Shown: one piece after another, positions 4,173 through 23,675 of the stretch
Layout: each line of letters begins with the position of its first letter
Position numbering within the stretch: the first letter of the stretch is position 1
NCBI RefSeq assembly: GCF_000336635.1
Contig: NZ_AOLY01000009.1
Location: forward strand, 111,199 to 175,198
DNA from: Haloarcula japonica DSM 6131
Lineage (GTDB): Archaea; Halobacteriota; Halobacteria; Halobacteriales; Haloarculaceae
DNA: 64,000 nucleotides
Direction of reading: 5' to 3'
Program-made: the position numbers and the translations under genes
The notes under the pieces: model-generated
Seen by the model: only the letters and a program-made list of their open reading frames with translations
What the model was told of the DNA's origin: nothing
Database searches by the model: none

Positions 4173-5612
4173 ATGCCTGAACACAATATTGTCATATTGA
4201 TTGCTGATACGCTCCGATATCATGACTTTCCGGTCTCTTCGCATTTTAACGACCATATATTGGGAACACGTGCTACTCAGGCCTTCACATCTGCCCCCTG
4301 GACTCTCCCTTCCCACGCGTCTATCTTCACTGGAACCACCCCATCGAAACATGGCGCACACGCAGGTCACAAGCACCTTGACAACAATCTCATCACACTC
4401 CCTGAAATTCTCCAAACTCACGACTATGAGACCGTTGCCGTCTCAAACAACACCTGGATCAGCGAGGAATTCGGTTTCGGTCGTGGCTTTGATACCTTCT
4501 ATAAGAACTGGCAGTATGTCCAAACCACTACCGACCTCGGGAAAATCGCTCAGATGGAAAACGGGCTTGATATGTTCAAAAAAGCAACGAAAGCTGTTTT
4601 GGATGGAAATCCGATAGCAAATATATTAAACGCAGTCTATGGCCAGTTCTTCCGTCGTGCAAACGACGATGGCGCTGCTCGCACCAACAAATGGATCAAA
4701 GATTGGCTCACGAGTAGAGACGATTCACGTCCGTTCTTTCTATTCGTCAATTATCTCGAACCACATCTTGAGTACCGGCCGCCAGAAGCACATGCAAAAC
4801 AGTACCTGCCCGAAGGCATTACTTACGAAGACGCAATGGAGACCCCACAGGACGCTTGGGGATACATTGCTGGTACCGTTGAGATGACCGACGAAAACTT
4901 CGAGATTCTTCGGGCACTGTACCAAGCCGAGATTTCCTATCTCGAAGAGAAAATCGAAGCGACTATTAATCTGCTTAAAGCTGAGGGAGAGTGGGACGAC
5001 ACACTGTTCATTGTTACGAGCGACCACGGTGAAAACATTGGCGAACACGGTCTGATGGACCACCAATATGCACTTTATGATACACTGTTGCATGTCCCGC
5101 TGTACGTGCACGGTGGCCCCTTCGAGGATAATGTCCGGAAAGATCTCGTCCAATTAATCGATATTGCTCCGACGATTCTTGATACAATCAATATCGACGC
5201 CCCAGAAGCGCACGACCAATTCCAGGGCATCTCGTTTCATCCCGACACCAACCAATCCCGCGAGTACGTCACTGCCGAGTACATAGCACCACAGCCATCC
5301 ATGGACGCCTTGGAAACTAAAATCGGCGATCTACCGGAACACATCTATGAATACGATCGCGCTCTCAGAGCGATCCGCACACATCAGTACAAGTACATCC
5401 GTGGTTCTGACGGCACCCACGAACTATATGACATCCGGGACGATCCCGACGAGCAGACCAATCTTGTGGACACCAAGCCAGACGTTGTTGAGAAGCTCGA
5501 TACGACATTAGACGAGTGGCTCAACTCGTTCGAAAAAACAGAACGATCGGAAGACGTTTTGATGGACGATGACACAAGATCTCGGCTGGAAGACCTCGGA
5601 TACCTCCAATGA
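4173..5612 (+). CDS. Sulfatase-fold hydrolase/transferase (alkaline phosphatase superfamily)
   Basis: This 479-residue intact member carries the metal-binding D12 in ILIADTLR, the nucleophile segment APWTLPSHASIF, and D284-H285 in TSDHGENIGEHG. The nucleophile position (residue 44) is threonine, not the cysteine or serine converted to formylglycine in true sulfatases. This favours a phosphatase, phosphodiesterase or phospho-group transferase. In glycan clusters such enzymes often add or remove charged groups on surface sugars. No signal peptide is visible, so it may act inside the cell or be exported by an unknown route. The C-terminus RLEDLGYLQ matches a broken copy at 7556-7820. It lies just upstream of asnB (41-base gap) and is probably in the same transcript. 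Confidence 0.82.
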   Translation: MPEHNIVILIADTLRYHDFPVSSHFNDHILGTRATQAFTSAPWTLPSHASIFTGTTPSKHGAHAGHKHLDNNLITLPEILQTHDYETVAVSNNTWISEEFGFGRGFDTFYKNWQYVQTTTDLGKIAQMENGLDMFKKATKAVLDGNPIANILNAVYGQFFRRANDDGAARTNKWIKDWLTSRDDSRPFFLFVNYLEPHLEYRPPEAHAKQYLPEGITYEDAMETPQDAWGYIAGTVEMTDENFEILRALYQAEISYLEEKIEATINLLKAEGEWDDTLFIVTSDHGENIGEHGLMDHQYALYDTLLHVPLYVHGGPFEDNVRKDLVQLIDIAPTILDTINIDAPEAHDQFQGISFHPDTNQSREYVTAEYIAPQPSMDALETKIGDLPEHIYEYDRALRAIRTHQYKYIRGSDGTHELYDIRDDPDEQTNLVDTKPDVVEKLDTTLDEWLNSFEKTERSEDVLMDDDTRSRLEDLGYLQ

Positions 5613-5653
5613 TGGTCTTTATATATTGGACCATACAAATCTGACTCATCTCA

Positions 5654-7552
5654 ATGTGTGGAATTTCTGGCCTCTATTCGACGAGTAACTCCCCGGACAC
5701 ACGGATTCTAGAACAGATGAACGACTGCCTCAACTATCGGGGCCCGGACGAGTCAGGCTACTTTTTCGATGGGCCGGTTGGACTTGCACATCGCCGCTTG
5801 AGCATCGTGGGTCTCGGTACCGGTCGTCAACCGATCTTCAACGAGGACGAAACTATCAGCGTCATCTTCAACGGCGAGATATATAATTATCCTGAGTTGC
5901 GAAACAATCTCGAACCGCGACACACCTTTGACACCGACACCGATACTGAGGTTCTGGTCCACCTCTACGAAGAACATGGACTATCGTTCGTCAAATACTT
6001 GCGCGGGATGTTTGCCTTTGCCATCTGGGATACCGACAAAGACCGGCTCCTCCTCGCTCGGGACCGCATGGGTATCAAACCGCTCTTGCTTGCTGACGAT
6101 GGCGATACGACCGCCTTTGCCTCAGAACTCCCGGCGCTCCTCGAATCCAGCATCGATCATGGCGGCCTCAACCAACAAGCTATCTCAGAGTATTTTGCGT
6201 TCGGCCAGATTCCCGCACCGCGAACGATATTCAACAACGTCCGGAAGGTCGAGCCCGGCGAACTCGTCATCATCGACGATGGTGATCGGACTCACGAACA
6301 GTTCTATACGCCATCTATCGAACGGCGGGAGCCGTCTTTCGAGGACGCTGTCGACACACTCCGAAGTCGAATCGACGACGCCGTCGAACGACGGCTGATG
6401 AGTGACGTTCCACTGGGCGCATTTTTGAGTGGCGGTATCGACTCAAGCATCATCGTTGGGACGATGGCCGAGCTGATCGACGAGCAAGTTCGGACGTTCA
6501 CAGTCGGTTTCGATCAGTCGCTCTTTGATGAGTCGTGGGCCGCCCGTGAAGTCGCTGATTTCCACGGCACCGACCACACTAAGTTCACCGTGACCCCGGA
6601 CGATGTTCGGGACACGATCCCGACCGTGCTAGACAGGCTTGGAGAACCATTCGCGGATCCGTCGCTCATCCCGACTTACATCGTCTCGCGCGAAACCAGC
6701 CAGAACGTCAAAGTCGCACTTTCGGGAGACGGTGCTGATGAACTCTTTGCCGGGTACAGCAAGTACCGCGGGGAGTACTACTCCAAGTATTATCGCAGTC
6801 TTCCGAGGTCTCTCCGGGCAAATCTGATTACGCCTGCTATCAACGGGCTGGAAGCCTCTCGATCCGGCCACCGTGGAGAACTCGTTCGCAAAGCGCAGAA
6901 ATTCATCCGTGGTGATGAGGAGATCGTGTCCGATCGCCACTTCGAGTGGAATCGAATTTGCTCCGAGGACACTGAACGGACGCTGACTACCGGTAGCCCG
7001 GTCGTAGCCGGAGAGGAACGCATGCGGGAGGAACACCGACATCATGTAACAACCCTTCCAGAGAACAGGCGCGACGATATGTCCCGGATTCTGGCGGTTG
7101 ATACGCGGTTCGGGCTCCCGAACCAGATCCTCCAGAAGACCGACCTTGCGAGTATGTATAATTCTCTCGAAGTCCGTGTACCGTTCCTTGATCGAGCTAT
7201 CGTTGAGTATGCTCTGTCGCTCCCAAGTGAGTACAAGATCACTCGAACTAAACAAAAGCGCGTGCTAAAGCGTGCTTTCGAGGATCGTTTACCGGACTCG
7301 ATCCTAGAACGAAACAAGCAAGGATTCGATATGCCAATTGGCGAGTGGTTTAAGAACGAGCTTGCCGGGGAGTTTCGTGATACGATCACAGGAATGGATA
7401 GCAAACTATTCAACCACAGAGAAGTGCTGGATGTCTGTGACGAACATGTGGATGGCAACCACGACCATAGCAAATTCCTTTGGAGTGCCTATGTCTTCGC
7501 CAGATGGCACAATCGGATGGTCGATTCTGGTGTACTCTCATCCTCATCCTGA
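5654..7552 (+). CDS. asnB: Asparagine synthase (glutamine-hydrolysing) family amidotransferase
   Basis: The 632-residue enzyme starts MCGISG, so Cys2 becomes the N-terminal nucleophile of the class II glutaminase domain. The synthetase half carries the ATP pyrophosphatase loop SGGIDSS at residues 259-265 and a later SGDGADELFAGY motif. It would use glutamine, ATP and a carboxylate (aspartate in the classic reaction) to make an amide. AsnB-type proteins placed inside polysaccharide clusters are often thought to amidate sugar acids or peptides, so the substrate here may not be aspartate. It follows the sulfatase closely. Directly after its stop lies the tail of a second sulfatase, which points to a recombination junction. 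Confidence 0.9.
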   Translation: MCGISGLYSTSNSPDTRILEQMNDCLNYRGPDESGYFFDGPVGLAHRRLSIVGLGTGRQPIFNEDETISVIFNGEIYNYPELRNNLEPRHTFDTDTDTEVLVHLYEEHGLSFVKYLRGMFAFAIWDTDKDRLLLARDRMGIKPLLLADDGDTTAFASELPALLESSIDHGGLNQQAISEYFAFGQIPAPRTIFNNVRKVEPGELVIIDDGDRTHEQFYTPSIERREPSFEDAVDTLRSRIDDAVERRLMSDVPLGAFLSGGIDSSIIVGTMAELIDEQVRTFTVGFDQSLFDESWAAREVADFHGTDHTKFTVTPDDVRDTIPTVLDRLGEPFADPSLIPTYIVSRETSQNVKVALSGDGADELFAGYSKYRGEYYSKYYRSLPRSLRANLITPAINGLEASRSGHRGELVRKAQKFIRGDEEIVSDRHFEWNRICSEDTERTLTTGSPVVAGEERMREEHRHHVTTLPENRRDDMSRILAVDTRFGLPNQILQKTDLASMYNSLEVRVPFLDRAIVEYALSLPSEYKITRTKQKRVLKRAFEDRLPDSILERNKQGFDMPIGEWFKNELAGEFRDTITGMDSKLFNHREVLDVCDEHVDGNHDHSKFLWSAYVFARWHNRMVDSGVLSSSS

Positions 7553-7555
7553 GGT

Positions 7556-7820
7556 CTCCCTGAACACTACCTCTCGCCCAGAACGATCCGCACGGACCGT
7601 TACAAGTACATTTGCGACGCGGACGGCACGACGGAACTCTACAGCGGTCCGGTCGATTACGACGAAACAACTGACCTATCAGACACACGAAGACATTGTC
7701 GCCGAACTCGGCATAACATTAGACGAGTGCCCCGACTCCTTCGAACAGGCCGACCCAGCCGGGATGACGACAATGTCTGCGAATGCGAAGGACAGCTTGG
7801 AGGACCTTGGATATCTGCAG
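7556..7820 (+). pseudogene. 3' remnant of a second sulfatase gene
   Basis: Translation from 7556 gives LPEHYLSPRTIRTDRYKY and then DADGTTELY, matching LPEH...AIRTHQYKY and DGTHELY of the intact sulfatase at 4173. Near 7660-7685 the reading frame must shift once; it then continues EDIVAELGITLDE and ends SLEDLGYLQ, the same tail as the intact copy, with its stop codon lost. The match covers about the last 90 residues. The fragment begins 3 bases after the asnB stop. It is non-functional and records a duplication or replacement event. Confidence 0.7.
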
Positions 7821-7855
7821 GAGTATTCGTCATGTGGGCACCCACTCGACGATCC

Positions 7856-8959
7856 TCACAGTTCACCACCGTTTCGACGGCACCCGCCATCGCTACACAA
7901 CCCTTCCAGAACCATCGTCGTCCGCTCGACGGTTTCCGCCCAGTCGAACTGTCCCTCAACCTGCACCCGCGGATCGGCCACACCACCGTCGATTACCGTC
8001 TCGAGTCCCTCAACGAACCCAGGGACGTCGCCGACAGGTACGATCACGCCGCCGTCGCCGATAACGGACGCAACCTGCTCCAGATCGCTGACCACGACCG
8101 GAACGCCCGAGGCCATCGCCTCCAGCACTGTCCGGGGCAACCCCTCGGCACGACTGGGCAAGATCAGCGCGTCCGCGGCCCGGTACACCGCCGGCATTTC
8201 CTCGTAGGGAAGCTGTCCGAGGAACTCGGCATGGTCCTCGTCCCTCCCGGACCGCAGCGGTCCCTCGCCGGCCACGTACAGTTTCGCGTTCCGCTCTTCA
8301 GATAGTTGCGAGACCGCCGCCACCGCGTCGCCGGGCCGTTTGCCCTCAACCAACCGCCCGACGAACAGTACTACGGGCCCATCGTGATCGATCCGGTCGC
8401 TCTCGGGACCATTGGGCCGGAACCGCTCGGTGTCGATCCCGTTGTGGACGACCTCTATCCGGGAATTGACACCGAACTCCCGCACCCGGTCACGATCCTC
8501 GTCAGTGTAACAGAAAACCACATCAGCTCGGTTGAAGGTCCAGCGCCCTATGCTCCGCAGGTACAGGTCGAACAGCCACTTGGGTGCGTTCTGCGAGTAG
8601 AGTCCGTGATTCGTAATTGCCAGTGGAATATCGCCCAGTCGTCGCTTCAATGCCGCCAGATTCGTCGAGAAATACAGGTGCGAGTGAGCATGTATCACGT
8701 CGAAATCGAAAGTCTCACGAAGGAACCGTGCCACGTTCAGTGAGATAGAATTGCCTATTAATTCGACCGACGGTGATCGACGCACCACCGTGTATCCGTC
8801 CCTCTCTTCATACCGTGGCAAACTCTCGTCGTCCGAGACTGTCAGCACCGTTACGTCGTGCCCCATCGCTGCCTGATCGCGACTCATTGCGTGGACATGG
8901 TAGGTCCCACCGCCGGGTACCTCGGGATACAGGTTTTGTGCCACGCGAAGAATACGCAT
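7856..8959 (-). CDS. Family 4 glycosyltransferase (GT-B)
   Basis: The protein is 367 residues from ATG 8959 (MRILRVAQNLYPEVPGGG). A longer frame to 9013 exists, but its extra 18 residues overlap the preceding gene and are not family-like. Features are the GGG acceptor loop, DVIHAHSHLYFS, HNGIDTERF, VLFVGRLVEGKRP, and the EX7E motif in PSRAEGLPRTVLEAMASG. It is predicted to transfer a sugar from a nucleotide donor during assembly of a surface glycan. The start codon lies two bases after the stop of the deleted epimerase gene, an operon arrangement that presumably predates the epimerase damage. GC content is higher than in the first 5 kb, closer to the core genome. Confidence 0.87.
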   Translation of the reverse strand: MRILRVAQNLYPEVPGGGTYHVHAMSRDQAAMGHDVTVLTVSDDESLPRYEERDGYTVVRRSPSVELIGNSISLNVARFLRETFDFDVIHAHSHLYFSTNLAALKRRLGDIPLAITNHGLYSQNAPKWLFDLYLRSIGRWTFNRADVVFCYTDEDRDRVREFGVNSRIEVVHNGIDTERFRPNGPESDRIDHDGPVVLFVGRLVEGKRPGDAVAAVSQLSEERNAKLYVAGEGPLRSGRDEDHAEFLGQLPYEEMPAVYRAADALILPSRAEGLPRTVLEAMASGVPVVVSDLEQVASVIGDGGVIVPVGDVPGFVEGLETVIDGGVADPRVQVEGQFDWAETVERTTMVLEGLCSDGGCRRNGGEL

Positions 8960-8961
8960 TG

Positions 8962-9300
8962 TCAACCCTCCAGAATCCACGGCTCGTACCACTCTCGATT
9001 CAATCGGTACCACTCGACGGATTCCGCGACGCCCTCCCGGATCGCTTGACGTAGCTTGTAGCCGATCAACTCTGAGGGCTTTGAGCTGTCGGCGTCTCGG
9101 ACGTCGCCTTCAGCGAGGCGATAAGAGCTGTCGCCCTTGCCGGCGCGGTTTTGGCAGAGTTCGACGGTGTATTTTCTCTCTGGTGTACCGTAGAAGGGAC
9201 CGAAATTGTTCAAGACGACGACGTCGTGATCATCAATGACGAAGAGCCTTGCAGGATGGCCGCCGATGAACCCGGCACCGCTGGTGACAGGAATTTGCAT
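8962..9300 (-). pseudogene. NAD-dependent sugar-nucleotide epimerase with a large internal deletion
   Basis: The 112-residue frame begins with a Rossmann nucleotide-binding turn, here TSGAGFIGGH, followed by HDVVVLNNFGPFY and EGDVRD, as in UDP-glucose 4-epimerase/dehydratases of the extended SDR family. It then jumps directly to the family's C-terminal end (SELIGYKLRQAIREGVAE...VEWYR). About two thirds of a normal protein of roughly 310-330 residues is missing, including the Y-x-x-x-K active site. The frame stays open across the deletion. It could not be an active epimerase. It was probably once co-transcribed with the GT4 gene that starts two bases downstream. Confidence 0.75.
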
Positions 9301-9509
9301 TATCCAATCCGAACTGGGCTATCGTAAAAGGTGTACTGTATTCACGTTATTCGATAGAAGCATCTGCCTCGGCAATACAGACCTCACTAATTCCTTAGCC
9401 TCATTCTAATACGGTCTATAATGGACAGAGCAGAGAACGCGAATAAATGTTTATTTTCGCAGCAACGACAAACTTGGGTAGTTTATTGACTTTCCCTCCA
9501 GAATGATAT

Positions 9510-10680
9510 TTGATTTTAACAGTCGGCTGGCCTAAAGAAATTGTAGGGCGTGATGAGGAGCTACAGCAGTATATTGCCGCGTTGCAGCCGGTAATCAACG
9601 GCGACCAACCATCGAACATTTTTATACGGAAAAGCTGGTGTTGGCAAGACCGCATGCACACGCTATCTTCTTGCCGAACAGAAGTCGGATGCGGCCGAGT
9701 ACGATATCGACGTGACAACGATTCGGACGAACTGTGAGGACCTGAGCACAAGCTATCAGGTTGCAATCCAGCTGGTGAATGAGCTCCGTACACCTACGAA
9801 TCAAATAAAGCCGACCGGGTACCCGCGACGACAGGTAAACGAGTGGCTCTGGGACGAACTCGATTCCATCGGTGGGACGATTGTCATCGTTTTTGACGAA
9901 GTCGAACATATTGAAGATGACTCAATCTTGTACCAGATCCCCCGTGCGCGAGCGAATGGAAACCTTAGCCAATGCAGAGTTGGCATCATTGGCATTTCAA
10001 ACGATTTTAAGTACCGCGAACGACTCAGTTCGAAGGTCCAATCGAGCCTCTGTGAAAAGGAACTTCAGTTTCCAGCGTACGACGCGAGTGAACTTCGCGA
10101 TATCCTTCGCCAGCGTGCTGAGATCGCTTTTTATGATAGCGTCGTCCCACAGGAGGTAATTGCAAAATGTACTGCCTTCGGTGCAAAAGACGCTGGCGAC
10201 GCCCGCTAGAGCCTTGACCTCTTGATGGAAGCGGGTGACATTGCGGTTGAGGAAAACGCCACGAACCTCACTGAAGCCCATGTGGATGCTGCACGAACCG
10301 CGCTTGAACGAAGTCGTATCGCTGAGGGCGTTGCTGGACTTACACAACATGGCCATCTGGTACTGTATGCACTTCTGATGCTCCACGAGGAGGGCGACAC
10401 GCCAGTTCGGGCGCGAACGATTCAGGATCGATACGAAGTCATCTGTGACCGGGCAGCAACAAATGCACTCGTTCCCCGGCGGATGCGCGACCACCTGAAC
10501 GAACTCGCCATGCTGGGGATCGCCGATCGCGTTGAGCGGAATAAGGGTGAAGTTGGAGGGCGATATTATGAGTACGCACTTGATGTGAATCCTGATCTCC
10601 TTGTTGAGGCGCTTAGCGAAACGATGGATATCGTTGGAGTTACCGATCAAATACAGCAACGTCTTGACCGGAGCTACTGA
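9510..10680 (+). pseudogene. orc1: Orc1/Cdc6 replication initiator, broken by a frameshift and a stop
   Basis: The N-terminal frame from TTG 9510 reads EIVGRDEEL...LQPVINGDQPSNIF, typical of haloarchaeal Orc1/Cdc6 just before the Walker A loop. In the T-run at 9618-9624 the frame shifts, and the next frame continues YGKAGVGKT. The Walker B region reads VIVFDEVEHI. A TAG at 10207-10209 interrupts the same frame after GDAR, and translation beyond it gives the lid region and a C-terminal winged helix (ALLMLHEEGDTPVRARTIQ) up to 10680. The usual first 20 or so residues are also missing. Intact homologues bind ORB repeats to open the origin, and two ORB-like repeats lie directly downstream. Function is lost unless the errors are sequencing artefacts. 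Confidence 0.85.
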
Positions 10681-10714
10681 GTCTTGCTTGAGGCGAGATC
10701 GCCTGACTGCCACC

Positions 10715-10738
10715 GGAGACACTGGACACAGTGGGGTG
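10715..10738 (+). repeat. ORB-like origin repeat, copy 1
   Basis: The core ACACTGGACACAGTGGGGTG is 35 bases past the stop of the orc1 pseudogene. It shares the TGGA..C core and the downstream G-run seen in archaeal origin recognition boxes. A second copy in the same orientation lies 79 bases further on. Assignment as an ORB rests on this likeness and on the neighbouring initiator gene. Confidence 0.5.
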
Positions 10739-10792
10739 GGTGGGATAATCTCCCTCCATGATCAGAACACACAGCCGAAGCCATCTCCTCTT

Positions 10793-10817
10793 CAGAGACA
10801 CTGGACACAATGGGGTG
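10793..10817 (+). repeat. ORB-like origin repeat, copy 2
   Basis: The core ACACTGGACACAATGGGGTG differs from copy 1 at one base in the twenty-base core and is in direct orientation. A weaker inverted match, GTCCCCACACGCGAAACAC, lies at 10991-11009. Such repeats are the binding sites of Orc1/Cdc6 at haloarchaeal origins; here they would be relict or cross-recognised by an initiator encoded elsewhere. Confidence 0.5.
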
Positions 10818-11711
10818 AGTGCCCACTACACGATGACTGGACCCGGCTTCATTCGGGACAGAGGTGTGGTTCAAATATGTACTCTCTATCCGTTTTGGTG
10901 AGGCGCTGTCTGACTCACTCAAACTCCGTCAAATGGCGCCATCATATGCGAATCCAGCCGATTGATTACCCGGTCAGCGCACCTCAGGCAGTCCCCACAC
11001 GCGAAACACTCGACACGGTTAGGTATTGAGCGCTCACCTCCTCTTGCTCTATTGATCCGCTGGCTCATCTATTATATCCTCGTACTTTTCTGAGGAAGAG
11101 GAGGAAAGCATACTAAATGTACTCTCTCTTCAGCGTGTTGGCCTCCGTGCTCGCCTCTGAGCCGACCAGAATGACACCCGGGACTGATTGTCTGACGACA
11201 ATGTACCGATGGCTCGTTCCACTCTCGAATCCCCTGATATCACTCGACAGACTCTCCAACGCCTGTGGACTGTAGCAGCGGCATCACTGGAAGGTCAGTG
11301 CGTCCGGAACAAGTCAGGGGGTGATTCCGTCAAAGCCGCTGTCGAAACTCAACACTCTGTCTCGGGGCATTCGACCGTCGTGACGGTCATTGCGTCGGTG
11401 AAACTGAGTTCATGATCAGCTGGGTCTATTAGGTGGACACGGCACAACCGAAGAGAGTTGGAGACGAGTGGAGTAGTTCGATAGCCGAAGGGTACCCTGA
11501 TCCGCGGATGCGCCGCCCTACTTCGAGACCAGCTTCAACAACTCGTCCACATCTGCGTCAGCGCGACTGTTCCGTCGTGGATGTAGTCACTTGTCACCAC
11601 CTGACTGTATTCAGCAGACGAAAAGACGGCACTCAGGGTGTCAGTACGACCGTGTGTCGACTGGCGTCGGTGCCGCGATGGGCGTGGAACACGCCAGTGG
11701 TGAGAAGACGC
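10818..11711. other. Non-coding or degraded stretch
   Basis: Apart from the weak inverted ORB-like match at 10991-11009, I could not find a credible gene on either strand. Short open frames (for example 11188-11415 and 11433-11864 on the plus strand) lack recognisable motifs and haloarchaeal acidic composition. The stretch is best read as decayed DNA of the mobile-element relict. Confidence 0.4.
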
Positions 11712-11909
11712 TCAGCGGTACAGGATATGATCAATGTCGTCTTTTGTTGTTCCGACATCGGAGAGAATCATTCTTTGGTGGAATTCCTTAATCTCCGCTT
11801 CGTTCAGGGTCGTTGTTCCATTTCGGAACGAATCAACGAACTCCGAGCGGGAGTCAACTGCTGACTGAATCAGTGTTGAGAGGATTTCTTGTTGAGTGAC
11901 TTTGTTGTT
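11712..11909 (-). pseudogene. Remnant coding segment of unknown family
   Basis: Reading the minus strand from 11909 to the TGA at 11712-11714 gives about 65 residues with believable protein composition (QEILSTLIQSAVDSR, LNEAEIKEFHQRM, KDDIDHILYR). There is no start codon before the segment, and an in-frame TAA precedes it at 11910-11912. It looks like the C-terminal part of a decayed gene. I do not recognise the family. Confidence 0.3.
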
Positions 11910-12121
11910 TTAAGCCGAATCTCTACTTGTAGCTCTTCGAGCTTGGATTTTTGTCCTCATCTATCTTGACTGCTGTTGATATACATTCGAGTTGTAGGTG
12001 TAACCTGGTTAAGATTTTTTACCGAAATCAGAACTGGTCAATCGGAATCACAGATCGAAATACTGGGTTCCAGCGGGGACGTAATTGTCATGTGATTCAG
12101 TCAACTGACGTCGATCACGGC

Positions 12122-12463
12122 TCATATACCATCTCGATTTGGCTTATCAAACTCACTAGATTTTTTATCTCCCTTCAGATCATCTCTGTCGATTGTGTCA
12201 CTGTCCACCCGCGCTGGTTTGCCACCACAGGTCGTCACCCGTTCGCGACCGACTAGGCGCCAGTGACAGCCAGTCCACGTTTCTTCATACCGATCCCATC
12301 CGAGACGATCCGGGCACGGCTCAAACCGCACCCGTCGCTGCGTGCCACTGTAGTCTCTGTACCGAATTTCGAGAGACTTGCCTGTCGGTGGTTGATCAGT
12401 TGCTGTACCGTCAGTGCCCGGCTCCGAACAGACATTCGTGTCCAGACATGTTTTGTGGCGCAC
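12122..12463 (-). CDS. Hypothetical protein, possibly relict
   Basis: This 113-residue frame has a believable core (LEIRYRDYSGTQRRVRFEP, WDRYEETWTGCHWRLVGRE) resembling small haloarchaeal beta-rich proteins of unknown function. The first 30 residues and the last 30 look random, so the gene may be a decayed core with a chance start and stop. It sits between degraded genes with no operon partner. Function is unknown. Confidence 0.35.
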   Translation of the reverse strand: MRHKTCLDTNVCSEPGTDGTATDQPPTGKSLEIRYRDYSGTQRRVRFEPCPDRLGWDRYEETWTGCHWRLVGRERVTTCGGKPARVDSDTIDRDDLKGDKKSSEFDKPNRDGI

Positions 12464-12645
12464 CGAGAATGCGTTCTATGCGCCACTCCGCCACGCAACT
12501 GAATACTTCTCGCATGTACAATGAGCCTGCTGGAAAATCTCATAGCGAGACTCCCTCGCGTCCACGCAGAAGAGGTCAATTCTCAGTCTTTGGTTGGCCT
12601 CCCCCATAGACTCATTTTGATGGAATAGATACCGTAGAATGAGGA

Positions 12646-12920
12646 ATGGCGTTTGAGCACATTGAGAACATCGAAGACAGGACAGGCGAGACGATTGTCT
12701 GGCGGAGCACCTACCAGACTGACGACCCACGTACCCAAGCGGGTACCGATACGCCCTTGACTACGGCTTTCTTAATGGATGGGGGCCATTCTCCATTACG
12801 ACAACGAGAATCAGGCTCCCGAGCATCACAAACGTGCCTGATGGCATCGAAAAAATCGAATTCCCTGAAATAGTCGAGATCCGTGGACGATTGTTGAACG
12901 AAATTCAGGACCGTCCATGA
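12646..12920 (+). pseudogene. TumE-type toxin gene with frameshifts
   Basis: The start frame reads MAFEHIENIEDRTGETIVW and DDPRTQAGT. The frame then shifts to read YRYALDYGFLNGWGPFSI. The segment HYDNENQAPEHHK lies in another frame, and VPDGIEKIEFPE followed by LLNEIQDRP ends at TGA 12918-12920. Joined together these make a small protein of about 95 residues with the Y-D-N...HHKHVPDG pattern of TumE/DUF6516 toxins. The ATG of the following antitoxin-like gene overlaps the stop (ATGA), as in intact pairs. At least two frameshifts make it non-functional. The TumE identity is my recognition from motif order. Confidence 0.55.
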
Positions 12921-13345
12921 CCACGAACAGACTCAAAATCACGTATGGACAGCGCGAGAAGACCCAGCGAGCGGTTCGCGAACGACTTCGGCGGGCAGAC
13001 GCTGGAGAAGAATTCGACGAACAGGAGCCAGCGTTTATTCTCAACTTTGAGGAGCTTGACGACGTTGAACGACTTATGCGTCGGTTGAATCTACAGCTCT
13101 TGGACGTCACCGCCAGTGAACGCCCCGAAATATTCGTGAGACGGCTCGACTCGTCGAACGCGATTATAAAGAGGTTCACCGGAATCTCAAGGAACTCGAA
13201 GCGATCGGTGTCATTGAGTTCGCAACAGACGGCAATAGCAAACGCCCGATCCTCCGTGAGGGGGCCCGAGGCAATCGACCTCTCGATACCTCTCCAATCG
13301 ACTCCGACACACCAGACTCTACTTCTCCAAGGGACGTCAGCGTGA
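12917..13345 (+). pseudogene. HVO_A0114-type (TumA-like) winged-helix antitoxin gene with two compensating frameshifts
   Basis: The first 65 residues (KITYGQREKTQRAVRERL, FEELDDVERLMRRLNLQLLD) and the last 25 (EAIDLSIPLQ) are in one frame. The DNA-binding middle (ETARLVERDYKEVHRNL, ELEAIGVIEFATDGNSKRP) is in another, entered between 13100 and 13138 and left near the G-run at 13260-13265. The open frame therefore spans the whole gene while its middle is nonsense. Intact members are MarR-like DNA-binding proteins paired with TumE toxins, which matches the overlapping upstream gene. The alternative is two sequencing errors. Confidence 0.6.
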
Positions 13346-13619
13346 GAACGAACCAGTGTGGGAGCGATCACAGGTCCGGTGACTCTTGACTTCTTGTAAT
13401 CTACACATAGTTTGTGACATCAGGTACGTGTGTCAGGTGTTACTGCCGGTGCGCCCGCTATGTGGCCGTCCTGCTCATTCACTGCCTGTGTTTTCTCTCT
13501 GATGCACATTTTCAGTGGACACGCAAATGATTTACCGGGTAAGTATGCCCGCTGAATATCTGTTCGCACTCATACCGATATAGACTTGAGGTGAAACCAA
13601 GCCTAACTTATGTGCCCGA

Positions 13620-16600
13620 TTGAATTTTCCCACGATTAAATTATCAAGACTGATTTTGGTGACCGAACAGTTAACAAGCGCCTCGCTTGATACTGTTTTG
13701 ATATCAACTCCGAATGACATCACAGGGAATTACTTTCTCGTTGAACCCTCTGATGATCGTATAGATCCACAAACTGGCGTTGAGGCATGTCGAACACTGA
13801 GCCAACTCCAACCAGATAGTGGGTGGCGAAGTCAACTCCCGCTGGCGGCTGAGCCATAGCCTTACACATACGAATGGACGGTGACGGCACATCCACAGGA
13901 AAGTGGGACAGCGTTGCAGTATTACGTCGGTACAGACGAAGTGCTTGGCACCGAAACGCTCAAAACACACCTCCGGACGATGTTTCCGAACAGCTACGAA
14001 CTCAAGCAACAATCAAACTGTGCGCCGTTGTCGCAGTTCCGCTCGCCGGACTGGGCCTACGCCGCGGAGGCAGTCGGCGCGCTACAGTGCTACAGCGATT
14101 GGTTCACGCAGCTCCAATCATTTGGCTCACACGACGACACAAGTAGTCGACATCCGATGACAGCCATGCTCGAGGCACTACAAGACAGCGAGACACCTTG
14201 TCCGCTACAGATTTGCGCTCAACCCACTGACAAGCTCTCGGCTATACAAAACAGGATATTAAATTCCATCTCGAACGAGACTGCAAGCGGGCAAATGCAC
14301 CGCTTGTTAGGTCTGTTATATGGTCCCCTCCAGAAAAGAAACCGAGGGAGGAGCTAGATTATGAATCCCGCAACCGACTGTCTCATCTTGAGGCGAAAGA
14401 GTCAGATGCGTTTGCGGTGTCGATTCGGGTGCTGATCGGTGACGGTAGTAACGCCCTCTGACCGCCGACAGACTGGCTTCGGTTATGGGGACGATAAGCG
14501 GCGAATACTACAAAATCAACGGAAAGTGTCATGAAGAGACCGAACGTGTCCGTGAGGCGATCCAACAACGTCGTATTGTTACCCCGACATACAAGTACGT
14601 CCCGGGGCCGATTCCAAGCAACCGAGACATGTCACGTGGGCTCGTTGTTGACTACAAAGAATTGGGGAGCATTATATTCCCTGACAGTGATGACCTGACC
14701 GATCCAACTCGACGCGCCCTCAACACTAAATCTGATACGACGGGGTTTACAACGCCACCAGCGCCGGAGATGCTTGATTCGTACCAGCACGGACCGTCGC
14801 TTGGATGCGTCCGCAACAGCGAGGGAATCGTCGAAACACAACCGTTTGCCTCCCGCCAAAGCTCCAGCAACTACACACGCTACTCGTCGGCAGCACCGGC
14901 AGCGGGAAGGCTGGTATCGCGGAAAACGCCATATTGGACAACAGCGAATCGACTAATGGTGCGGATATCGCTCTCATCCCAAAAGGTGATGAGATGGCTA
15001 CAGAGTTGCTCCGATCACACTATGCCCGTCATGGCTCCTTAGATAACGTGTACTATTTCGAGTGCTCGGAAACGCTACCAGCACTCTCTGTACTTGATAT
15101 CCGACCGGAACTCGAGGCCGGCATTCCGCGTTCCAGTGCGGTCGCAAACACCATTGACCAGTACATCAGCCTACTGCGGGCACCCATGCCTGAGAACAGC
15201 TATGATGCAGCCGTCCGTTCGCCGGATGTAATCCGGTTCTTGTTGCAAGCGCAGTTCGATGTACGGCATGGCAGCGATGCCTTCACACATGCTGATCTGA
15301 AGGCTGCGGCGATGCGACTCCAAAATGACCGGACAATGCCGACCGTCGACGATGAGACACTCGAGCGAAATCTCACGACTCTCCTCAACACCAGTGACCG
15401 GACGTTTCAGAAGCTCATGGGCGGGGTGATGACACGACTAGATACGGTCTCCCAAGACGCCCGACTCCGTGCACCATTCAATCATCTCCCTGAGGATGAA
15501 GCCGAGCGGTTTGATCTCGTGGACCTGCTCGACGAAGGCGCCCTGATAATCTTGGATATGGGTGAGTTCGATTCACAGGAGACGAAACAGGCAATTACGC
15601 AGGTGGTGCTGTCGAACCTCTGGAGCGCGCTCAAGCGTCGAGTCAGATATACCAATGATACCGAAACCGACCTGCCGCTGGTCAACCTGTATCTCGAGGA
15701 AGCTGCTACCTTCGAGGAGCTCGACCTCCTCGGGGAGTTGCTTGATCAAAGCCGGAGTTTCGGCATCGATCTCACCCTGATCACTCAGTTCCCTGCGCAA
15801 TTCAAGCATACATCTCCCGGCACGTACGAGCGGCTGCTCAACAACGTTGGCACGGTCGTTGCCTCTCAGGTTGAGTGCGATCGGCCACTGGCAGAGGCGC
15901 TTGCAACTGAGAAGTATACTGCCGACGAAATCGAGAACAAACTGGGATCAGTCCCGCGAGGGGAGTGGCTAGTGTCTCTTCCCGGCGCATATGGTGCCTC
16001 AAAGCCTGACCCGTTCCAGATAACCGCTCCATCACTGCCCGCTGGCCATCCGGAGTCTGAGACCTTCGATGACCTCCCACATGTGGAGGTTACGACCGCT
16101 ATCGCTGACTGGGTCGACACCGTTAGCTCTCGGTATATGGAGCACGCATACGTCAACGACCTCGAGTCACCAGTTGTTGAGGTGGTTCGCTACTATGAAC
16201 CCGGGCAGGGCAAGTCACCACACATCCCAGTCGAGACGGCCATGGACGGGACGGACGATCCAGAGCAGGCTGCCGACCGGACCGATCAGCGTCGATTCGA
16301 TGTCGTTGGGCTTGACGCTGAGGGTGAGATTGTCATTGTCGGGGAAGCCGAGCATCTGAACAACGATGTCGCCGAGGCAGTCGCCGCGGATTTCGATAAG
16401 ATGACTGCCTGTGGCCCTGTGGAGGTAATTTGGGTTGTCCCGTCACGCTCTGCTGTGACTCTCATTGTCGAGGCGCTCAACGATCCTCCCGAAGGATCCT
16501 CTCGAGTCGAAAAAAAAAACGTACAGTTCTGGAACACCCCCCAAGCAGTATTGTATTGACGAATCGGGGCTATCACAGATGATGACATTCAGCACGCTCC

Positions 16601-16647
16601 GCGATCGGCTGCCCGAGCGATCACAATCCGAATCACCCTCATCATAG
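13620..16647 (+). pseudogene. Conjugation-type HerA/VirD4-like ATPase, multiply broken
   Basis: This is a large haloarchaeal ATPase gene in pieces. Residues from about 13620 (LDTVLISTPND) run to a TAG at 13857-13859, and the same frame continues PYTYEWTV...YYVGTDEVLG to 14357. DYESRNRLSHLEAKESDAF is in a shifted frame to about 14455. SGEYYKINGKCHEE continues in a third frame from 14497 to about 14780. The longest piece (14805-16559, 584 residues) carries LLVGSTGSGK, where the Walker A threonine/serine is replaced by alanine, then LVDLLDEGALIILDMG and LYLEEAATFEELDLLGELLDQSRSFG. The true C-terminus (MMTFSTLRDRLPERS) lies in yet another frame, ending 16645-16647. Intact relatives power DNA transfer in integrative or plasmid elements. 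Confidence 0.75.
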
Positions 16648-17028
16648 CCACATACCGGCTATTGTCGGCTATCTATCTAGTTCACACTCCGCAGATACTC
16701 CACAATAAAGAGAGTGATATTGGAAGTGTGAGTGAATGATATAGGCTTCGCCAGTTGAGAGATATCCCATCACAGAAGTGGGTGGTCGGACATGCCAGTA
16801 GTGCGAATGGGCCAAGCGCGCCCGTAACCGTGCTTGCTAGTTAGGGGGTAATCAGCAGTACTATTGGTAAATTGTGCTATAGAGTTGCCAGACTATCATT
16901 TGATGAAGTGTCCACATTCCCAGATATATGTGTATTAACGGTCGTTTTTCGAAGTATGAAAACCGAATAGATAGCTTGAGTCATTCACACTATCACGACT
17001 TTGACGGTAGCAGAAGTGTGAAGCGACG
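16648..17028. other. Intergenic region without recognised gene
   Basis: This AT-richer stretch separates the decayed element from the next intact gene. I found no coding frame with protein-like composition on either strand, no tRNA and no transposase. Short TA-rich boxes such as TATAGAG near 16878 could be promoters but have no clear gene to serve. Confidence 0.4.
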
Positions 17029-17526: not shown

Positions 17527-18942
17527 TCAGAGCCCGATACTCACGACCGTCGCTTCGATAGTGATCGTCCCCAAATTGATGACCACTGTCGAGCCCTGCT
17601 GAATGGATTCGCCTTTGAACTGGACACCGCTTGTCGTTTCACGGACTCGGAGTTCGGTCGTGATGGTAATATCGCGTAGGTACGGGTGGTCGGCAACGGT
17701 GACGGAGCCGTTTTCGCCCGTTGTGATGATAACGGACGGTTCAGTACTGACGCGACTCACGCGAGCGACCGTCTGGCCGCCACTGGTTTCGGTCATCCCG
17801 GGCCTAATCGCATCGGCCATGTCCGCGCGCATGTCGGTCATCCGCAGGGTGACCGTCCGATTGGTGAGCGTCCCGCGCGGTTCGAGTGTACCGACGCGGT
17901 CGATGGTGCCGGAGAGGTCGTAGCTCTCAGTCGAGACAGTGATGTTGTTCCCGCGCTGGACTATGGCGTTCCCGAACTGCTGGCGACCGTTGCTTTCGAT
18001 GGTTGCCAGCGAGAGACCGACGAGCGCGCGCTTGCGGTCGGGATTCCGTGTTGCATACGTAGTAACGGTCTGTACTTCGGCTGCCTCATACCCGGCAACG
18101 GTGGCGACGTCGCCCGTAGCGATACGATCAGCTGTCTCGGCATCGACAGTCGTCTCAAATAGCACGTCAGTAGTCGCCGGCTGGAGACCGCTTCCGACCT
18201 GTTTTATACGGCCATCAAGCGTGTAGTCCTCGGCCGGGAGTGTGACTGTCTGGCCACGTCGGACCTGGGTACCGCCGAACCGGCGGTCGGATTGCTGCGT
18301 GTGGGTGTCGAGATCAGCTTCGACAAAGACGGTCTGTTCAGTTGTGTTTCCAGCTGTGTATGCAGCCACGTCTTCGATGGTTGCAACGGTGCGGCCAGCG
18401 AGTCGGATCTCGTCACCGGGGGTAACGTCCTGGGCTTCGGCGGTGGCCATGGTGTCCCTGAGAACCACAGTCGTGTCCTCTTGGGCGAGGCTATTGTCAC
18501 CACCCACAGCACGAATCTGGCCGCTTACTTCGTACCGACTTGTCGCGATAGTCAGTGCCCGGCCGAGGCGAGGGGGCGCATCCGTGTATGTGAGGCTGTC
18601 ACCATCGGGTGACCCCTGCAGTGTGGCTCGCAGGATGACGCGTGTTTGATCGTCCTGCGGTGTCAGGTGAACGTCTGTAATCGTAAGTTCCGAATCGCCG
18701 CCGGGACTGTACGTATCACCTTCAGTGATCTCAGAAACGATGTACGACGGTTGTGTCCCGAGATCGAGGGTGACATTGGTTGTATTCGGTTCCGGTGACT
18801 CTGACTCCGGCTGGAGAACGAGCGCAACGCCTGCCGTGACGACCGCAACGACGAGCAGGACGGCTAGCGCATCGACGACGTTGACGAGGCCGAAAAGGTT
18901 CCCATTCTCGTCAAGGAGGGTCGACGAACGACTATCTGCCAT
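17527..18942 (-). CDS. DUF4330 family membrane-anchored protein
   Basis: The protein is 471 residues from ATG 18942 (MADSRSSTLLDENG). An upstream start at 19032 would add 30 polar residues and is less likely. The N-terminus has the DUF4330 signature: a D-E-N-G-x-L-F-G-x-V-N-V-V-D segment followed by one transmembrane helix (LAVLLVVAVVTAGVALVL). Outside the membrane are four related units, each with a G-x-x-(V/I)-x-x-G pair and a closing Y-x-(L/V)-x-G-x-I-x-x-V-G, for example at DYTLDGRIKQVG and SYDLSGTIDRVG. The repeat is beta-rich and may form a surface scaffold. The function of DUF4330 is unknown. The divergent neighbour at 19283 is an HTH regulator. Confidence 0.8.
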   Translation of the reverse strand: MADSRSSTLLDENGNLFGLVNVVDALAVLLVVAVVTAGVALVLQPESESPEPNTTNVTLDLGTQPSYIVSEITEGDTYSPGGDSELTITDVHLTPQDDQTRVILRATLQGSPDGDSLTYTDAPPRLGRALTIATSRYEVSGQIRAVGGDNSLAQEDTTVVLRDTMATAEAQDVTPGDEIRLAGRTVATIEDVAAYTAGNTTEQTVFVEADLDTHTQQSDRRFGGTQVRRGQTVTLPAEDYTLDGRIKQVGSGLQPATTDVLFETTVDAETADRIATGDVATVAGYEAAEVQTVTTYATRNPDRKRALVGLSLATIESNGRQQFGNAIVQRGNNITVSTESYDLSGTIDRVGTLEPRGTLTNRTVTLRMTDMRADMADAIRPGMTETSGGQTVARVSRVSTEPSVIITTGENGSVTVADHPYLRDITITTELRVRETTSGVQFKGESIQQGSTVVINLGTITIEATVVSIGL

Positions 18943-19282
18943 GCTGTAGGGATTTCTTCCGAGTGGTTTGGGTGTTTCGTTGTCTTCCTCCCTGTTTGAG
19001 TGTGACTGTTCTCGATTCCGGACTGCACCCAACCACCCACGCTCAGAAAGTGGAAATGTACCATACCGATATAATCTAAGCAGTGATACAGCTGCTTGTG
19101 CGGGACTATCGACGTTCTCTGAGCCATACTACCGGTAGAGCCTCCCAAAATTGGTCTGTGGAGATTTTTTATCAAAAGAAATCAGTCTATATCGACAGGT
19201 GAGTAAGCAAGCGATTCCACCAAGTGACTATTAATATAGCCTCTCGATTTTTAGACACTATCTGTATAGTGGCAATGTCCTT

Positions 19283-20173: not shown

Positions 20174-21877
20174 ATGAGACACCGGATCGTGAGCGGGATC
20201 TGCGCTTTACTCCTCCTCTTGACAGTCGCGTCTGTCTCCGTAGGTGTCGCTGCCGCAACGGACGCCGGGCAGTATGCTGAATACACAGCGACGGGCAACG
20301 AAACAGTGCCAGCGATACAGTCGGCCGAGCCCACACAGGCTGTTGCGGACGGGCCGAACGGAACCGCGTTCGTCTGGGAGCAGATAGACAGCGAGCAGGT
20401 CAGCGAGTATCGGATTGCAGTGACCGTTAGTTCGCCGCAAGAAAACCTCTCGGTCTGTGCGCGTGCGAACGGGTCGTTGAACTGTACGTCGGTCGGCCCG
20501 AACGGAACTGCGACCCTCACGACTCCTGGGGCGGCGGGACTCGATGATCTCTCTATCGCTCTTTACAATACGAGCGCTGACACCACGCTAGATCGGCAGT
20601 CGGTGTCTCTGCAGCCGATTCAGCGAGCCGGTGATATTGACGACGACGGGCTCAACAACAGCAACGAGGTGGTCCAAGAGACGAATCTCACTGATGCTGA
20701 CACTGACGACGACGGGCTGACGGATGGTGCGGAGGTCCACCAGCACGGGACAGTCCCAACAGCCGCAGATACTGACGAAGACGGTGTCGGTGACAGGGCT
20801 GAGATTCAACAGGGAACCGACCCGCGACAGGGCGACACGGACGGCGACGGGCTGTCGGACGAACGCGAACTGTCACTCGGGACGAATCCGACCGTCGCCG
20901 ATACTGACGGCGATGGACTGTCCGACCAGCGAGAGGCGTCCGGAAAGACCGACCCGACCGACGCAGACACGGACGACGACGGCGTCGCCGACGGCCGGGA
21001 GCTGGAGATCGGCACGAACCCGGTACAGGCTGACACGGACGATGACGAAGTCGCCGATGGGCGAGAGCTAGCCATAGGCACGGACCCGACAGTCGCAGAC
21101 ACCGACGGAGATGGGGTAACAGACGGGGCAGAACTCGAAGCGGGAACTGCACCGACCAAGAGCGATACGGACGGTGACGGCCTCAACGACGGAAAGGAAC
21201 TGGCGGCTGGCACGTCCCCGACCACCGTCGATACGGACGGCGATGGTCTCAGCGACGGACGCGAGATTTCAGGCCTTGGAACGGACCCGCTCGCAGCCGA
21301 CTCGGACGGTGACTTCCTGACCGACCAGCAGGAAATCGTCTGGGGAACGAACCCGAACAGCGTGCTGACGCCGGCCTGGGTGACGAGTTCGCTTCTTGGG
21401 TTCCTCATTGGAATCGGGCTGACAGTCGTATCAATCAGGCGTGGCTGGGTCACGGAGCTGTCCGTGGCAGCCAGACTGTTCATCTATCGCCACCTCGAAC
21501 TGGACCGGGAGATAATCGCGGTCAACCGTGAAATCGAAGCGACGGACAGGGTTGCCGAAGCTGACCGTCCAGATGTCGACGCGGACACCGCGGCTGAAGC
21601 CTTCGAGCAAGCCGACCGGGAACTCACCCCCGACGCGCGGCTCGTGAAACTGATGCTGCAAGTCGAGAACGGCCGTCTGCACCAGACTGATATCGTCGAG
21701 GCGACGGACTGGTCGAAAGCGAAGGTCAGCCGCCTCCTGTCGCGGATGGTCGACGACGACGAGGTCGTAAAGATCCGTCTCGGCAGGGAGAACCTCATCT
21801 GTCTGGAACGGGCAAAGCCTGCAGCGGCGAACTCGCCACACGCGGGCGATATCAAGCCACCGACGCCCGGCGGATAA
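20174..21877 (+). CDS. Transmembrane winged-helix regulator with extracellular TSP3 calcium-binding repeats
   Basis: The 567-residue protein has four parts. Residues 1-28 are a Sec signal peptide (ALLLLLTVASVSVGVAAA). Residues 29-150 are a beta-rich ectodomain with N-glycosylation-type NGT/NLS sequons. Residues about 153-390 contain eleven thrombospondin type 3 units of the form DTDGDGLSDGRE, expected to bind calcium. One transmembrane helix (SSLLGFLIGIGLTVVSI, about 400-420) follows, and the cytoplasmic end has a winged helix, QVENGRLHQTDIVEATDWSKAKVSRLLSRM (split here as VENGRLHQTDIVE and WSKAKVSRLL). The layout suggests direct signalling from outside to DNA. The target is unknown. A hairpin with a T-run follows the stop. 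Confidence 0.85.
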   Translation: MRHRIVSGICALLLLLTVASVSVGVAAATDAGQYAEYTATGNETVPAIQSAEPTQAVADGPNGTAFVWEQIDSEQVSEYRIAVTVSSPQENLSVCARANGSLNCTSVGPNGTATLTTPGAAGLDDLSIALYNTSADTTLDRQSVSLQPIQRAGDIDDDGLNNSNEVVQETNLTDADTDDDGLTDGAEVHQHGTVPTAADTDEDGVGDRAEIQQGTDPRQGDTDGDGLSDERELSLGTNPTVADTDGDGLSDQREASGKTDPTDADTDDDGVADGRELEIGTNPVQADTDDDEVADGRELAIGTDPTVADTDGDGVTDGAELEAGTAPTKSDTDGDGLNDGKELAAGTSPTTVDTDGDGLSDGREISGLGTDPLAADSDGDFLTDQQEIVWGTNPNSVLTPAWVTSSLLGFLIGIGLTVVSIRRGWVTELSVAARLFIYRHLELDREIIAVNREIEATDRVAEADRPDVDADTAAEAFEQADRELTPDARLVKLMLQVENGRLHQTDIVEATDWSKAKVSRLLSRMVDDDEVVKIRLGRENLICLERAKPAAANSPHAGDIKPPTPGG

Positions 21878-21938: not shown

Positions 21939-22349
21939 CGGATGTGTCTCCGTCATCTGCAACTGTCACAACAGTTGTCACTGAAGCCACACCGATAGCC
22001 GGTAGACGCATGGAAACGATAATTTCCGTCTGTTGGCCCTTCTATAACCAACAAACGGCGGAATCCGTCCGAGATACAATGCCTACCGCAACTGCCCGTA
22101 TGCCCATTTGTAGATCTTATTTGCCGCTGTAGTGGTGAAACAATTTAGTATGCTGTGTGAAACAGCGGTGGAACGGAGCTCTTAACCCGAAACCCCCGGA
22201 AAATAGGTTTATAGCCTTCAGAACGCTGTTTTATCGTGCGCTGGTCCCTGGTAAGTCGGCCATTATCGACCCGTTAAATCGGTGAAACAGTCGCAATCGG
22301 CGGAACAGTCGACCCGGTATATGTCGATTGCTGAAAAAGCAGAGGGCAC
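21939..22349. promoter_or_regulatory. Leader and promoter region of the winged-helix pair
   Basis: No gene is supported here. A perfect inverted repeat AACTGT-CACA-ACAGTT lies at 21961-21976, with a further TGTCAC just after. A TATA-like box TTTATA at 22208-22213 is preceded by a purine-rich stretch that could serve as BRE. It would give a leader of about 110 bases for the gene at 22350. The palindrome is a candidate regulator site but is far (about 250 bases) from the TATA box. Confidence 0.35.
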
Positions 22350-23063
22350 ATGTCCATAGCTGAAACGACTTCCGAACCCACGACAACTGAGGCCGAGGAG
22401 TCCGCGACGGAGGAATCGTCATCTGCGGAGTCCACATCGGACGACGAGCTCACCCGCGACGACCTTTTCCACGTCCTCCAGTGTCGTCGCCGCCGTCTGG
22501 TCCTCAAATACCTCCACGAACACCCCGGTGGTGAGCCGGCCGATATGAGCGACATCGCAGAACACATCGCAGCGCTGGAACACGACACGACGGTCGACTC
22601 GCTCCGCTCGAAACAGCGCCAGCGCGTCTACATCGCGCTGTACCAGTCTCATCTCCCAAAGATGGACGATGCGGGCGTCATCAACTACAACCAGGACCGG
22701 GGACTCGTCGAAGCGACCGCACTCGCGAACTCCTTCCACAAATATCTCGACGAGGAACCATCACTTCTGTCGACGTCGGCTGCGGAGTCGACGCCGTCGA
22801 CCCAGCCCATCACCGAGCATGATCGGATAGATGCTCGCGCGTCGGCCGACAAGCGATGGTCAAGTCGGTATCTCGGGACTGCGTGTGCGACACTGATTAC
22901 GGTCGGTGGACTCGCACTTAGCGGGATCACAGTGCCGGGCGTCGCAGTCGCACTCGTCGTGAGCGTAGTGTTCGTAGCGCTGGCGGTGAGTCATCGACTC
23001 TCACTGTCGGCACCACAGTCGCTTGCTGACCGTCTACGGGCCGGTTTCGATACGGAGAGCTGA
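22350..23063 (+). CDS. Membrane-anchored DUF7344-type winged-helix protein
   Basis: This 237-residue protein begins with about 35 acidic, serine- and threonine-rich residues. A winged helix follows (RDDLFHVLQCRRRRLVLKYL), with the family feature RQRVYIALYQSHLPKMDDAGVINYNQDRGLV at roughly residues 90-122. The C-terminal 70 residues contain two transmembrane helices (ACATLITVGGLALSGI and VALVVSVVFVALAVS). The family is widespread in haloarchaea and is presumed to bind DNA or sense at the membrane; its targets are not known. A paralogue follows on the same strand, so the two are probably an operon. Confidence 0.8.
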   Translation: MSIAETTSEPTTTEAEESATEESSSAESTSDDELTRDDLFHVLQCRRRRLVLKYLHEHPGGEPADMSDIAEHIAALEHDTTVDSLRSKQRQRVYIALYQSHLPKMDDAGVINYNQDRGLVEATALANSFHKYLDEEPSLLSTSAAESTPSTQPITEHDRIDARASADKRWSSRYLGTACATLITVGGLALSGITVPGVAVALVVSVVFVALAVSHRLSLSAPQSLADRLRAGFDTES

Positions 23064-23098
23064 GCTACGTACAGATGTGTGCACACAGCGCGACATCT

Positions 23099-23105
23099 GG
23101 GAGGT
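23099..23105 (+). promoter_or_regulatory. Shine-Dalgarno site fixing the start at 23115
   Basis: GGGAGGT lies 9 bases before ATG 23115. It supports that start over the in-frame upstream ATG at 23079. Such a strong site is uncommon in this window, where many genes are leaderless or overlap. Confidence 0.65.
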
Positions 23106-23114
23106 AAGAAACAG

Positions 23115-23675
23115 ATGCGACTGACAGCGGGACTTGACGCCGTCCGTGATGCCGGAAAAACGACTGAGCCTCCAGATCAGCCCGGCCTTGTTGACGCGAC
23201 GATATTCGATATTCTCGGTAACGAGCGCCGTCGCGCCTGCTTGCACTGCCTTGCTGAACACGAGGGAGCGCTATCTGTTAGTGCGCTGGGAAAACAGGTG
23301 GCGCGCGCCGTCGCCGATGCAGAGGCCGATAGTGACGAGCTTTACGACAGTGTGTACATTTCACTCTGTCAGACACACCTGCCAAAGCTTGACGCTGTCG
23401 GGCTGGTAGAATACGAGCAAAACCGAAAACGAGTCCGTCAGGGTCCCAGATTCGATGCTATCAGAGACCAGTTCGAAGCGGCCCGCACAACAGAGAAACA
23501 GTCAAGCGATGGTATTCGAGCCGAGATCATCGTGCCTATTCTGACGGTGGCGATAGGCGCAGCCGCAATCCTGAGTCCACCGGCAGCCAGAACCGTACTG
23601 CTTTTCGGACTCGTTGCGATTCACGTTCTCGTCCTCATATTTGCGTCCACGTCTCCGTTCACAATCAGTCATTGA
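23115..23675 (+). CDS. Membrane-anchored DUF7344-type winged-helix protein, second copy
   Basis: The protein is 186 residues from ATG 23115, chosen because of the GGGAGGT site just upstream. The winged helix reads VDATIFDILGNERRRACLHCL with SVYISLCQTHLPKLDAVGLVEYEQNRKRV, aligning with the gene at 22350. Two C-terminal hydrophobic helices (EIIVPILTVAIGAAAIL and TVLLFGLVAIHVLVLIF) anchor it. It differs from the first copy by a short N-terminus and two cysteines in the first helix region (RACLHCL). The pair probably arose by tandem duplication and may form a heterodimer. Targets are unknown. Confidence 0.78.
   Translation: MRLTAGLDAVRDAGKTTEPPDQPGLVDATIFDILGNERRRACLHCLAEHEGALSVSALGKQVARAVADAEADSDELYDSVYISLCQTHLPKLDAVGLVEYEQNRKRVRQGPRFDAIRDQFEAARTTEKQSSDGIRAEIIVPILTVAIGAAAILSPPAARTVLLFGLVAIHVLVLIFASTSPFTISH

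Follow-up and report, generated by a model that had tools for sequence, protein, structure and literature searches.

A TSP3-bearing predicted membrane regulator of Haloarcula japonica, its DUF7344 partner and a candidate operator

Relation to described membrane-bound regulators

Little is known of how archaea convert signals from outside the cell into transcription. Transmembrane transcription regulators (TTRs), a ToxR/CadC-like class in which single-pass proteins are the commonest, were surveyed by Demey et al. 2023 (PMC10269533), and ArnR and ArnR1 of Sulfolobus (PMC6396743) are membrane-bound one-component regulators of surface structures with an N-terminal helix-turn-helix. A window of 64,000 nucleotides from Haloarcula japonica DSM 6131 (the whole stretch of DNA that was analysed) contains a receptor gene that, as in the TTRs, combines a membrane span and a DNA-binding domain in one protein; it differs from them in that its DNA-binding domain is C-terminal and is accompanied by a signal peptide and a TSP3 ectodomain, and the words calcium and thrombospondin are absent from the survey (PMC10269533). 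The membrane span is predicted, and a cytoplasmic DNA-binding domain is predicted from DUF7343, from MarR/IclR matches, and from sequon and charge bias; by these two sequence criteria the receptor belongs to the TTRs, and it is predicted to work like them. ArnR and ArnR1 are likewise archaeal membrane-bound helix-turn-helix regulators, as the receptor is predicted to be, and differ from it in the terminus that carries the helix-turn-helix and in their targets. To our knowledge, neither has a TSP3 ectodomain.

The 22-residue repeat of the receptor is shared with the myxobacterial TSP3_bac proteins CglD and MtsD, which by annotation are not transcription regulators; against the NCBIfam models, the receptor scored far below the cut-offs for CglD (84 against 400) and MtsD (63 against 800) and is a member of neither equivalog. 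Three DUF7345-TM-DUF7343 paralogs in the same genome share its signal peptide, outer domain, single span, and C-terminal DUF7343. They differ in the ectodomain (DUF7345, which all three match and the receptor does not at E up to 1, in place of the N-terminal domain and TSP3 units), in the recognition helix (VSM, VSQ, or TSQ rather than VSR), and in having neither an adjacent DUF7344 gene nor a GAAAC array. DUF7343 and DUF7344 are named in no paper of the literature searched, and as far as that literature shows, the combination of TSP3 ectodomain, C-terminal DUF7343 output, DUF7344 partner, and operator is undescribed; it also yielded no described target of any comparable membrane-bound winged-helix protein from haloarchaea.

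Architecture, topology, and conservation of the receptor

A sequence-only reading of the gene had proposed a one-piece protein with eleven DTDGDG-type units outside, one helix, and a winged helix inside. The open reading frame, Pfam, and hydropathy agree on this layout (Table 1), and eleven TSP3 (EF-like) units with a period of 22-23 residues were counted between residues 154 and 387. Pfam TSP3_bac (PF18884) was matched in 10 stretches with an E value of 7.7e-52 (173.1 bits, curated cut-off 25) and DUF7343 (PF24034) with an E value of 1.4e-22 (79.7 bits, curated cut-off 27.6), and the only two hydropathic segments are those of the signal peptide and the span. No Pfam family matched the N-terminal outer domain. 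TSP3 units at the level of the receptor occur in only one other open frame of the 4.28 Mb genome, and DUF7343 exceeds its cut-off at six places. An AlphaFold model of the full receptor, run with six close orthologs, was unusable (mean pLDDT 35); the winged helix modelled alone was of low confidence (pLDDT 61), and Foldseek returned no match to it in the PDB below E 0.9. No argument below draws on either model.

Table 1. Features of the receptor locus, in window coordinates
Feature	Coordinates	Strand	Basis
TSP3-TM-winged-helix receptor gene, 567 aa	20174..21877	+	ORF, Pfam, hydropathy
Signal peptide, residues 1-28	20174..20257	+	hydropathy 2.49 at residues 5-23
N-terminal outer domain, residues 29-153	20258..20632	+	Cys 95 and Cys 104 conserved, 7 sequons, weakly constrained
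11 TSP3 units, EF-hand-like D-x-D-x-D-G-x-x-D-x-x-E, residues 154-396	20633..21361	+	Pfam, repeat analysis
Single membrane span, residues 403-421, then positive residues	21380..21436	+	hydropathy
Cytoplasmic linker, residues 422-485	21437..21628	+	homolog comparison
DUF7343 winged helix, residues 487-544	21632..21805	+	Pfam, 20-homolog comparison
Distal repeat block GAAACA, GAAACA, GGAACG, spacings 22 and 11	22135..22175	+	ortholog comparison, motif scan
Proximal candidate operator GGTGAAACAGTCG-n5-GGCGGAACAGTCG, immediately before the TATA-like element	22281..22311	+	conservation, motif scan
TATA-like element GGTATATG, almost unchanged among Haloarcula orthologs	22316..22323	+	ortholog alignment
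First DUF7344 membrane winged-helix protein, 237 aa, conserved partner	22350..23063	+	Pfam over cut-off
Second DUF7344 protein, 198 aa, separated from the first by 15 bp	23079..23675	+	Pfam over cut-off

One span after the signal peptide is conserved in 26 homologs. Counted over these sequences, which are related and not independent, the 9756 outer residues contain 190 N-glycosylation sequons and the 4048 inner residues contain none (71 and 9.4, respectively, were expected from composition-preserving shuffles), and lysine and arginine within 15 flanking positions number 0-1 before the span (3 in the protein of locus L095) and 1-5 after it, the direction being uniform. Because of this sequon and charge bias the DUF7343 domain is predicted to be cytoplasmic; a winged helix outside the cell, which would speak against the proposed layout, is the opposite of what the sequences indicate. 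The description of the receptor as a single-pass membrane regulator with its winged helix inside is well supported by these predictions.

Receptor orthologs of 564-572 aa with 66-100% identity and exactly 11 units were found in 15 of 32 Haloarcula genomes, and a 47-57% identical form in 3 further ones; the architecture is also present in other haloarchaeal genera and families, and the unit number ranges from 7 to 12 across the 26 compared proteins. Two candidate homologs, L103 and L104, were left out because they lack the TSP3 architecture of the receptor. Since the reading frame, unit number, and coordinating residues are all kept in the 15 Haloarcula genomes and the dN/dS is ~0.2, the receptor is not a chance open reading frame. 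The strongest purifying selection is on the winged helix (dN/dS 0.02-0.15, the lowest), whereas the N-terminal domain (0.22-0.43) is among the most relaxed parts. W513-S514-K515, V518-S519-R520, and G537-R538 of the winged helix are invariant in 20 diverse homologs, in which the EF-loop ligand residues and a juxtamembrane LTPAW.TS motif (majority residue) are also prominent; the cytoplasmic linker varies widely in length and sequence. Concerted turnover of the TSP3 repeats was considered and rejected, as the best match of most units is the unit in the corresponding position of the 66% ortholog. In a tree of winged-helix domains the TSP3 type is placed apart from the DUF7345-type paralogs with modest support and long branches, and the one apparent exception, L065, itself has TSP3 units; with that modest support, the tree would be compatible with a single origin. 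No relative was found on viral contigs, and a defence-system library gave nothing of note.

The DUF7343 domain of the receptor matched HTH_IclR and MarR_2 below cut-off; both were over cut-off in the homolog of locus L096, and MarR_2 was so in a DUF7343 gene on contig C45. A family profile search found structure 3zmd, which we take to be a MarR-type regulator, at E 6e-4. The residue after VS in the recognition helix is R in the TSP3-type and C45 proteins and M or Q in the DUF7345-type paralogs, and it correlates with a GAAAC array, which accompanies the former and not the latter. DNA binding by the receptor winged helix is a prediction, to which a candidate operator can now be added.

The DUF7344 partner and the repeat array

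The two further membrane-anchored winged-helix genes that had been noticed beside the receptor both belong to DUF7344, in a partnership that is conserved, and both proteins carry C-terminal hydrophobic segments that would suit an anchor of two spans. A DUF7344 gene lies downstream on the same strand in all 18 receptor-bearing Haloarcula genomes and at 8 loci outside the genus, lies on the other side of the receptor in L094 and L105, and is absent from L095, L096, L097, and L143. In most other genera the two remain adjacent, including at loci that share none of their remaining neighbours; the second DUF7344 gene is present in most, not all, orthologous loci. Orthologs of the first were found in the same 18 Haloarcula genomes and in genome G022. 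By this distribution, the receptor and DUF7344 are a co-inherited pair. Weaker DUF7344 paralogs occur elsewhere, with ~14 DUF7344 sites in the 4.28 Mb genome. The receptor-DUF7344 gap was ~300-790 bp in the loci measured, and the two are therefore probably separate transcription units. The module-type DUF7344 gene of G022 (locus L167), a genome with no receptor match, has a decayed-looking promoter array and represents a natural uncoupled case.

Within the receptor-DUF7344 intergenic region of Haloarcula orthologs, a ~60-bp block before the first DUF7344 start is nearly invariant, the 66% ortholog included, and contains GGTGAAACAGTCG-n5-GGCGGAACAGTCG beside GGTATATG; most of the rest of the region is not so constant. 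A conserved array of direct GNAAC(A/G) repeats with roughly helical spacing is present at this promoter, and related arrays were found before DUF7344 in other genera. GAAAC ranked first in an unbiased 5-mer test, occurring in 11 of 13 module promoters and in 12% of other upstream regions (p 5e-9); the called DUF7344 start of L093 is probably too far downstream, hiding its array in this test. Array sites numbered 44 against 9.1 in shuffles, and close pairs 40 against 0.8, three of the regions in this comparison having been chosen after the motif was seen. The spacings cluster near 9-11, 18-22, and 28-33 bp, a modest helical signal (18 of 2001 random sets were as high). When 182 genes at distant loci were scanned, 9 of the 10 with at least 3 clustered sites were module DUF7344 genes; the tenth, a PGM/PMM gene of L098, was rejected because its array is a local 22-bp tandem repeat. 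Only 6 close-spaced site pairs were found genome-wide, of which one is the DUF7344 promoter and one precedes a membrane DUF7343 gene. Single exact matches to GTGAAACAGT (16 genome-wide, control 1) were mostly inside genes and were rejected as targets, and no target was called from a single site. On contig C45 of the window genome at ~68280-69610 (L132:12278-13514), a two-gene DUF7343 unit encodes a signal-peptide protein followed by a membrane DUF7343 protein and is preceded by three GAAACG at 11-bp spacing; it is possibly a second system with the same operator type. A site just before the TATA-like element is compatible with activation, but repression is possible.

The array might instead be an operator for autoregulation by DUF7344, with the TSP3 receptor controlling DUF7344 by membrane contact and having no DNA binding of its own. 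Such a reading would agree with the array being at the DUF7344 promoter in most lineages and with the predicted membrane anchoring of DUF7344; we regard it as unlikely, however, in view of the other DUF7344 genes of the window genome, which have no array, of L096 and L097, in which there is no DUF7344 and the array is at the receptor's own promoter, of the array at another DUF7343 gene, and of the orphan DUF7344 of G022, with at most a decayed array. Because the array tracks the DUF7343 protein rather than DUF7344, the receptor is preferred as its binder.

Genomic setting and proposed mechanism

In Haloarcula, a BAT/HTH_10 gene flanks the locus on one side and TrkA/PhoU/RadB genes, of which RadB is named from its sequence, flank it on the other. 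Window positions 1-17000 are of lower GC, contain a TrwB/TraD-like ATPase gene (14805-16559), and resemble an integrated element next to the conserved region; a DUF4330 protein encoded on the opposite strand (17527-19032) is at this place in only some Haloarcula genomes. In L089-L093 and L105, the receptor pair is located among glmS, an asparagine-synthase-like gene, a nucleotide sugar dehydrogenase, GT2, and DUF354, and in L098-L101 among glmM, a sulfatase, a sugar-1-phosphate nucleotidylyltransferase, and a polysaccharide gene. In L105 (3098-13600), glmS, PGM/PMM, sugar dehydrogenase, and GT2 genes surround the pair, and the TSP3-DUF7343/DUF7344 order is reversed. The TSP3-DUF7343 protein of L143 (7635-15233) is shorter (388 aa) and has no accompanying DUF7344; a sulfatase and an LPG-synthase-TM-type protein are encoded a few kb away. 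Plasmid-borne pairs, whose receptor copies are annotated only as 'helix-turn-helix domain-containing protein', were found in Haloarcula sp. JP-L23 (L147), Halorussus limi (L148), and Halomicrobium urmianum (L149), together with glmS or glmM, a GlmU-like gene, a sugar dehydrogenase, and GT2 or a sulfatase; these clusters possibly make an amino-sugar/uronic-acid surface polysaccharide.

Since the locus is within polysaccharide genes in several lineages, control of an envelope or matrix polysaccharide is its likely physiology. Array-like sites are also present in the glmS-dehydrogenase intergenic region of L092 and L093 and at the dehydrogenase promoter of L105. The glmS and two sugar-dehydrogenase promoters of the window genome have no array, and this makes direct regulation of polysaccharide genes less likely in Haloarcula. 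The polysaccharide link is thus one of neighbourhood in some lineages, and for the window genome the context is TrkA/PhoU/RadB.

Taken together, the receptor is probably a single-pass transmembrane transcription regulator in which the stalk presents a sensor and the winged helix binds the GAAAC array and controls DUF7344. Permanently bound calcium would stiffen the TSP3 stalk, which would hold the N-terminal domain off the membrane, level with the S-layer or outside it, where it may meet a surface or glycan-related cue. In response, the inner winged helices would change their pairing or position and, still held at the membrane, would bind the repeats with their roughly helical spacing. Transcription of DUF7344 would thereby be switched, and this second membrane-anchored regulator would extend the response. 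More tentatively, the two proteins may form a two-tier, all-membrane cascade, in which the calcium-stiffened TSP3 receptor directly controls DUF7344 via a phased GAAAC operator and the pair, partly carried by plasmids, moves between lineages as a unit that controls surface-polysaccharide loci.

Calcium in the TSP3 units is more likely structural than a signal, as nearly every unit keeps its full ligand set, which suggests saturated structural binding; of the outer parts, the N-terminal domain is the least constrained. The sequence-only reading had proposed possible direct sensing of calcium or of the surface, external calcium filling the units being the signal in the former case; its one-piece regulator with the winged helix inside and its neighbours stand, and calcium as the signal is not supported. 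Eleven EF-like loops with strongly conserved ligand positions, and a Na/Ca exchanger gene adjoining L102, would suit such a sensor, which is nevertheless quite improbable, given that a long array of uniformly intact sites points to saturation in brine, that no calcium gene was recognised at the other loci examined, and that the unit number differs between genera. Release of the winged helix by a protease (regulated intramembrane proteolysis) would be permitted by the type I topology and cytoplasmic linker, neither of which is specific to it, and is very doubtful with a linker so variable and no conserved protease neighbour seen. That the protein acts as a surface adhesin or in a structural role, with a DUF7343 tail for protein contacts rather than DNA, is hardly credible: CglD, MtsD, and other surface proteins do have TSP3 repeats, but here the winged helix is the most constrained part, its recognition-helix residues are invariant, homologs exceed the HTH_IclR and MarR_2 cut-offs, and a repeat array is linked to it.

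The preferred reading, a membrane-held regulator acting on the DUF7344 promoter, concerns a locus that offers a conserved receptor, a partner, and a candidate operator together in genetically tractable haloarchaea, and that links DUF7343 and DUF7344 to envelope polysaccharide gene clusters.
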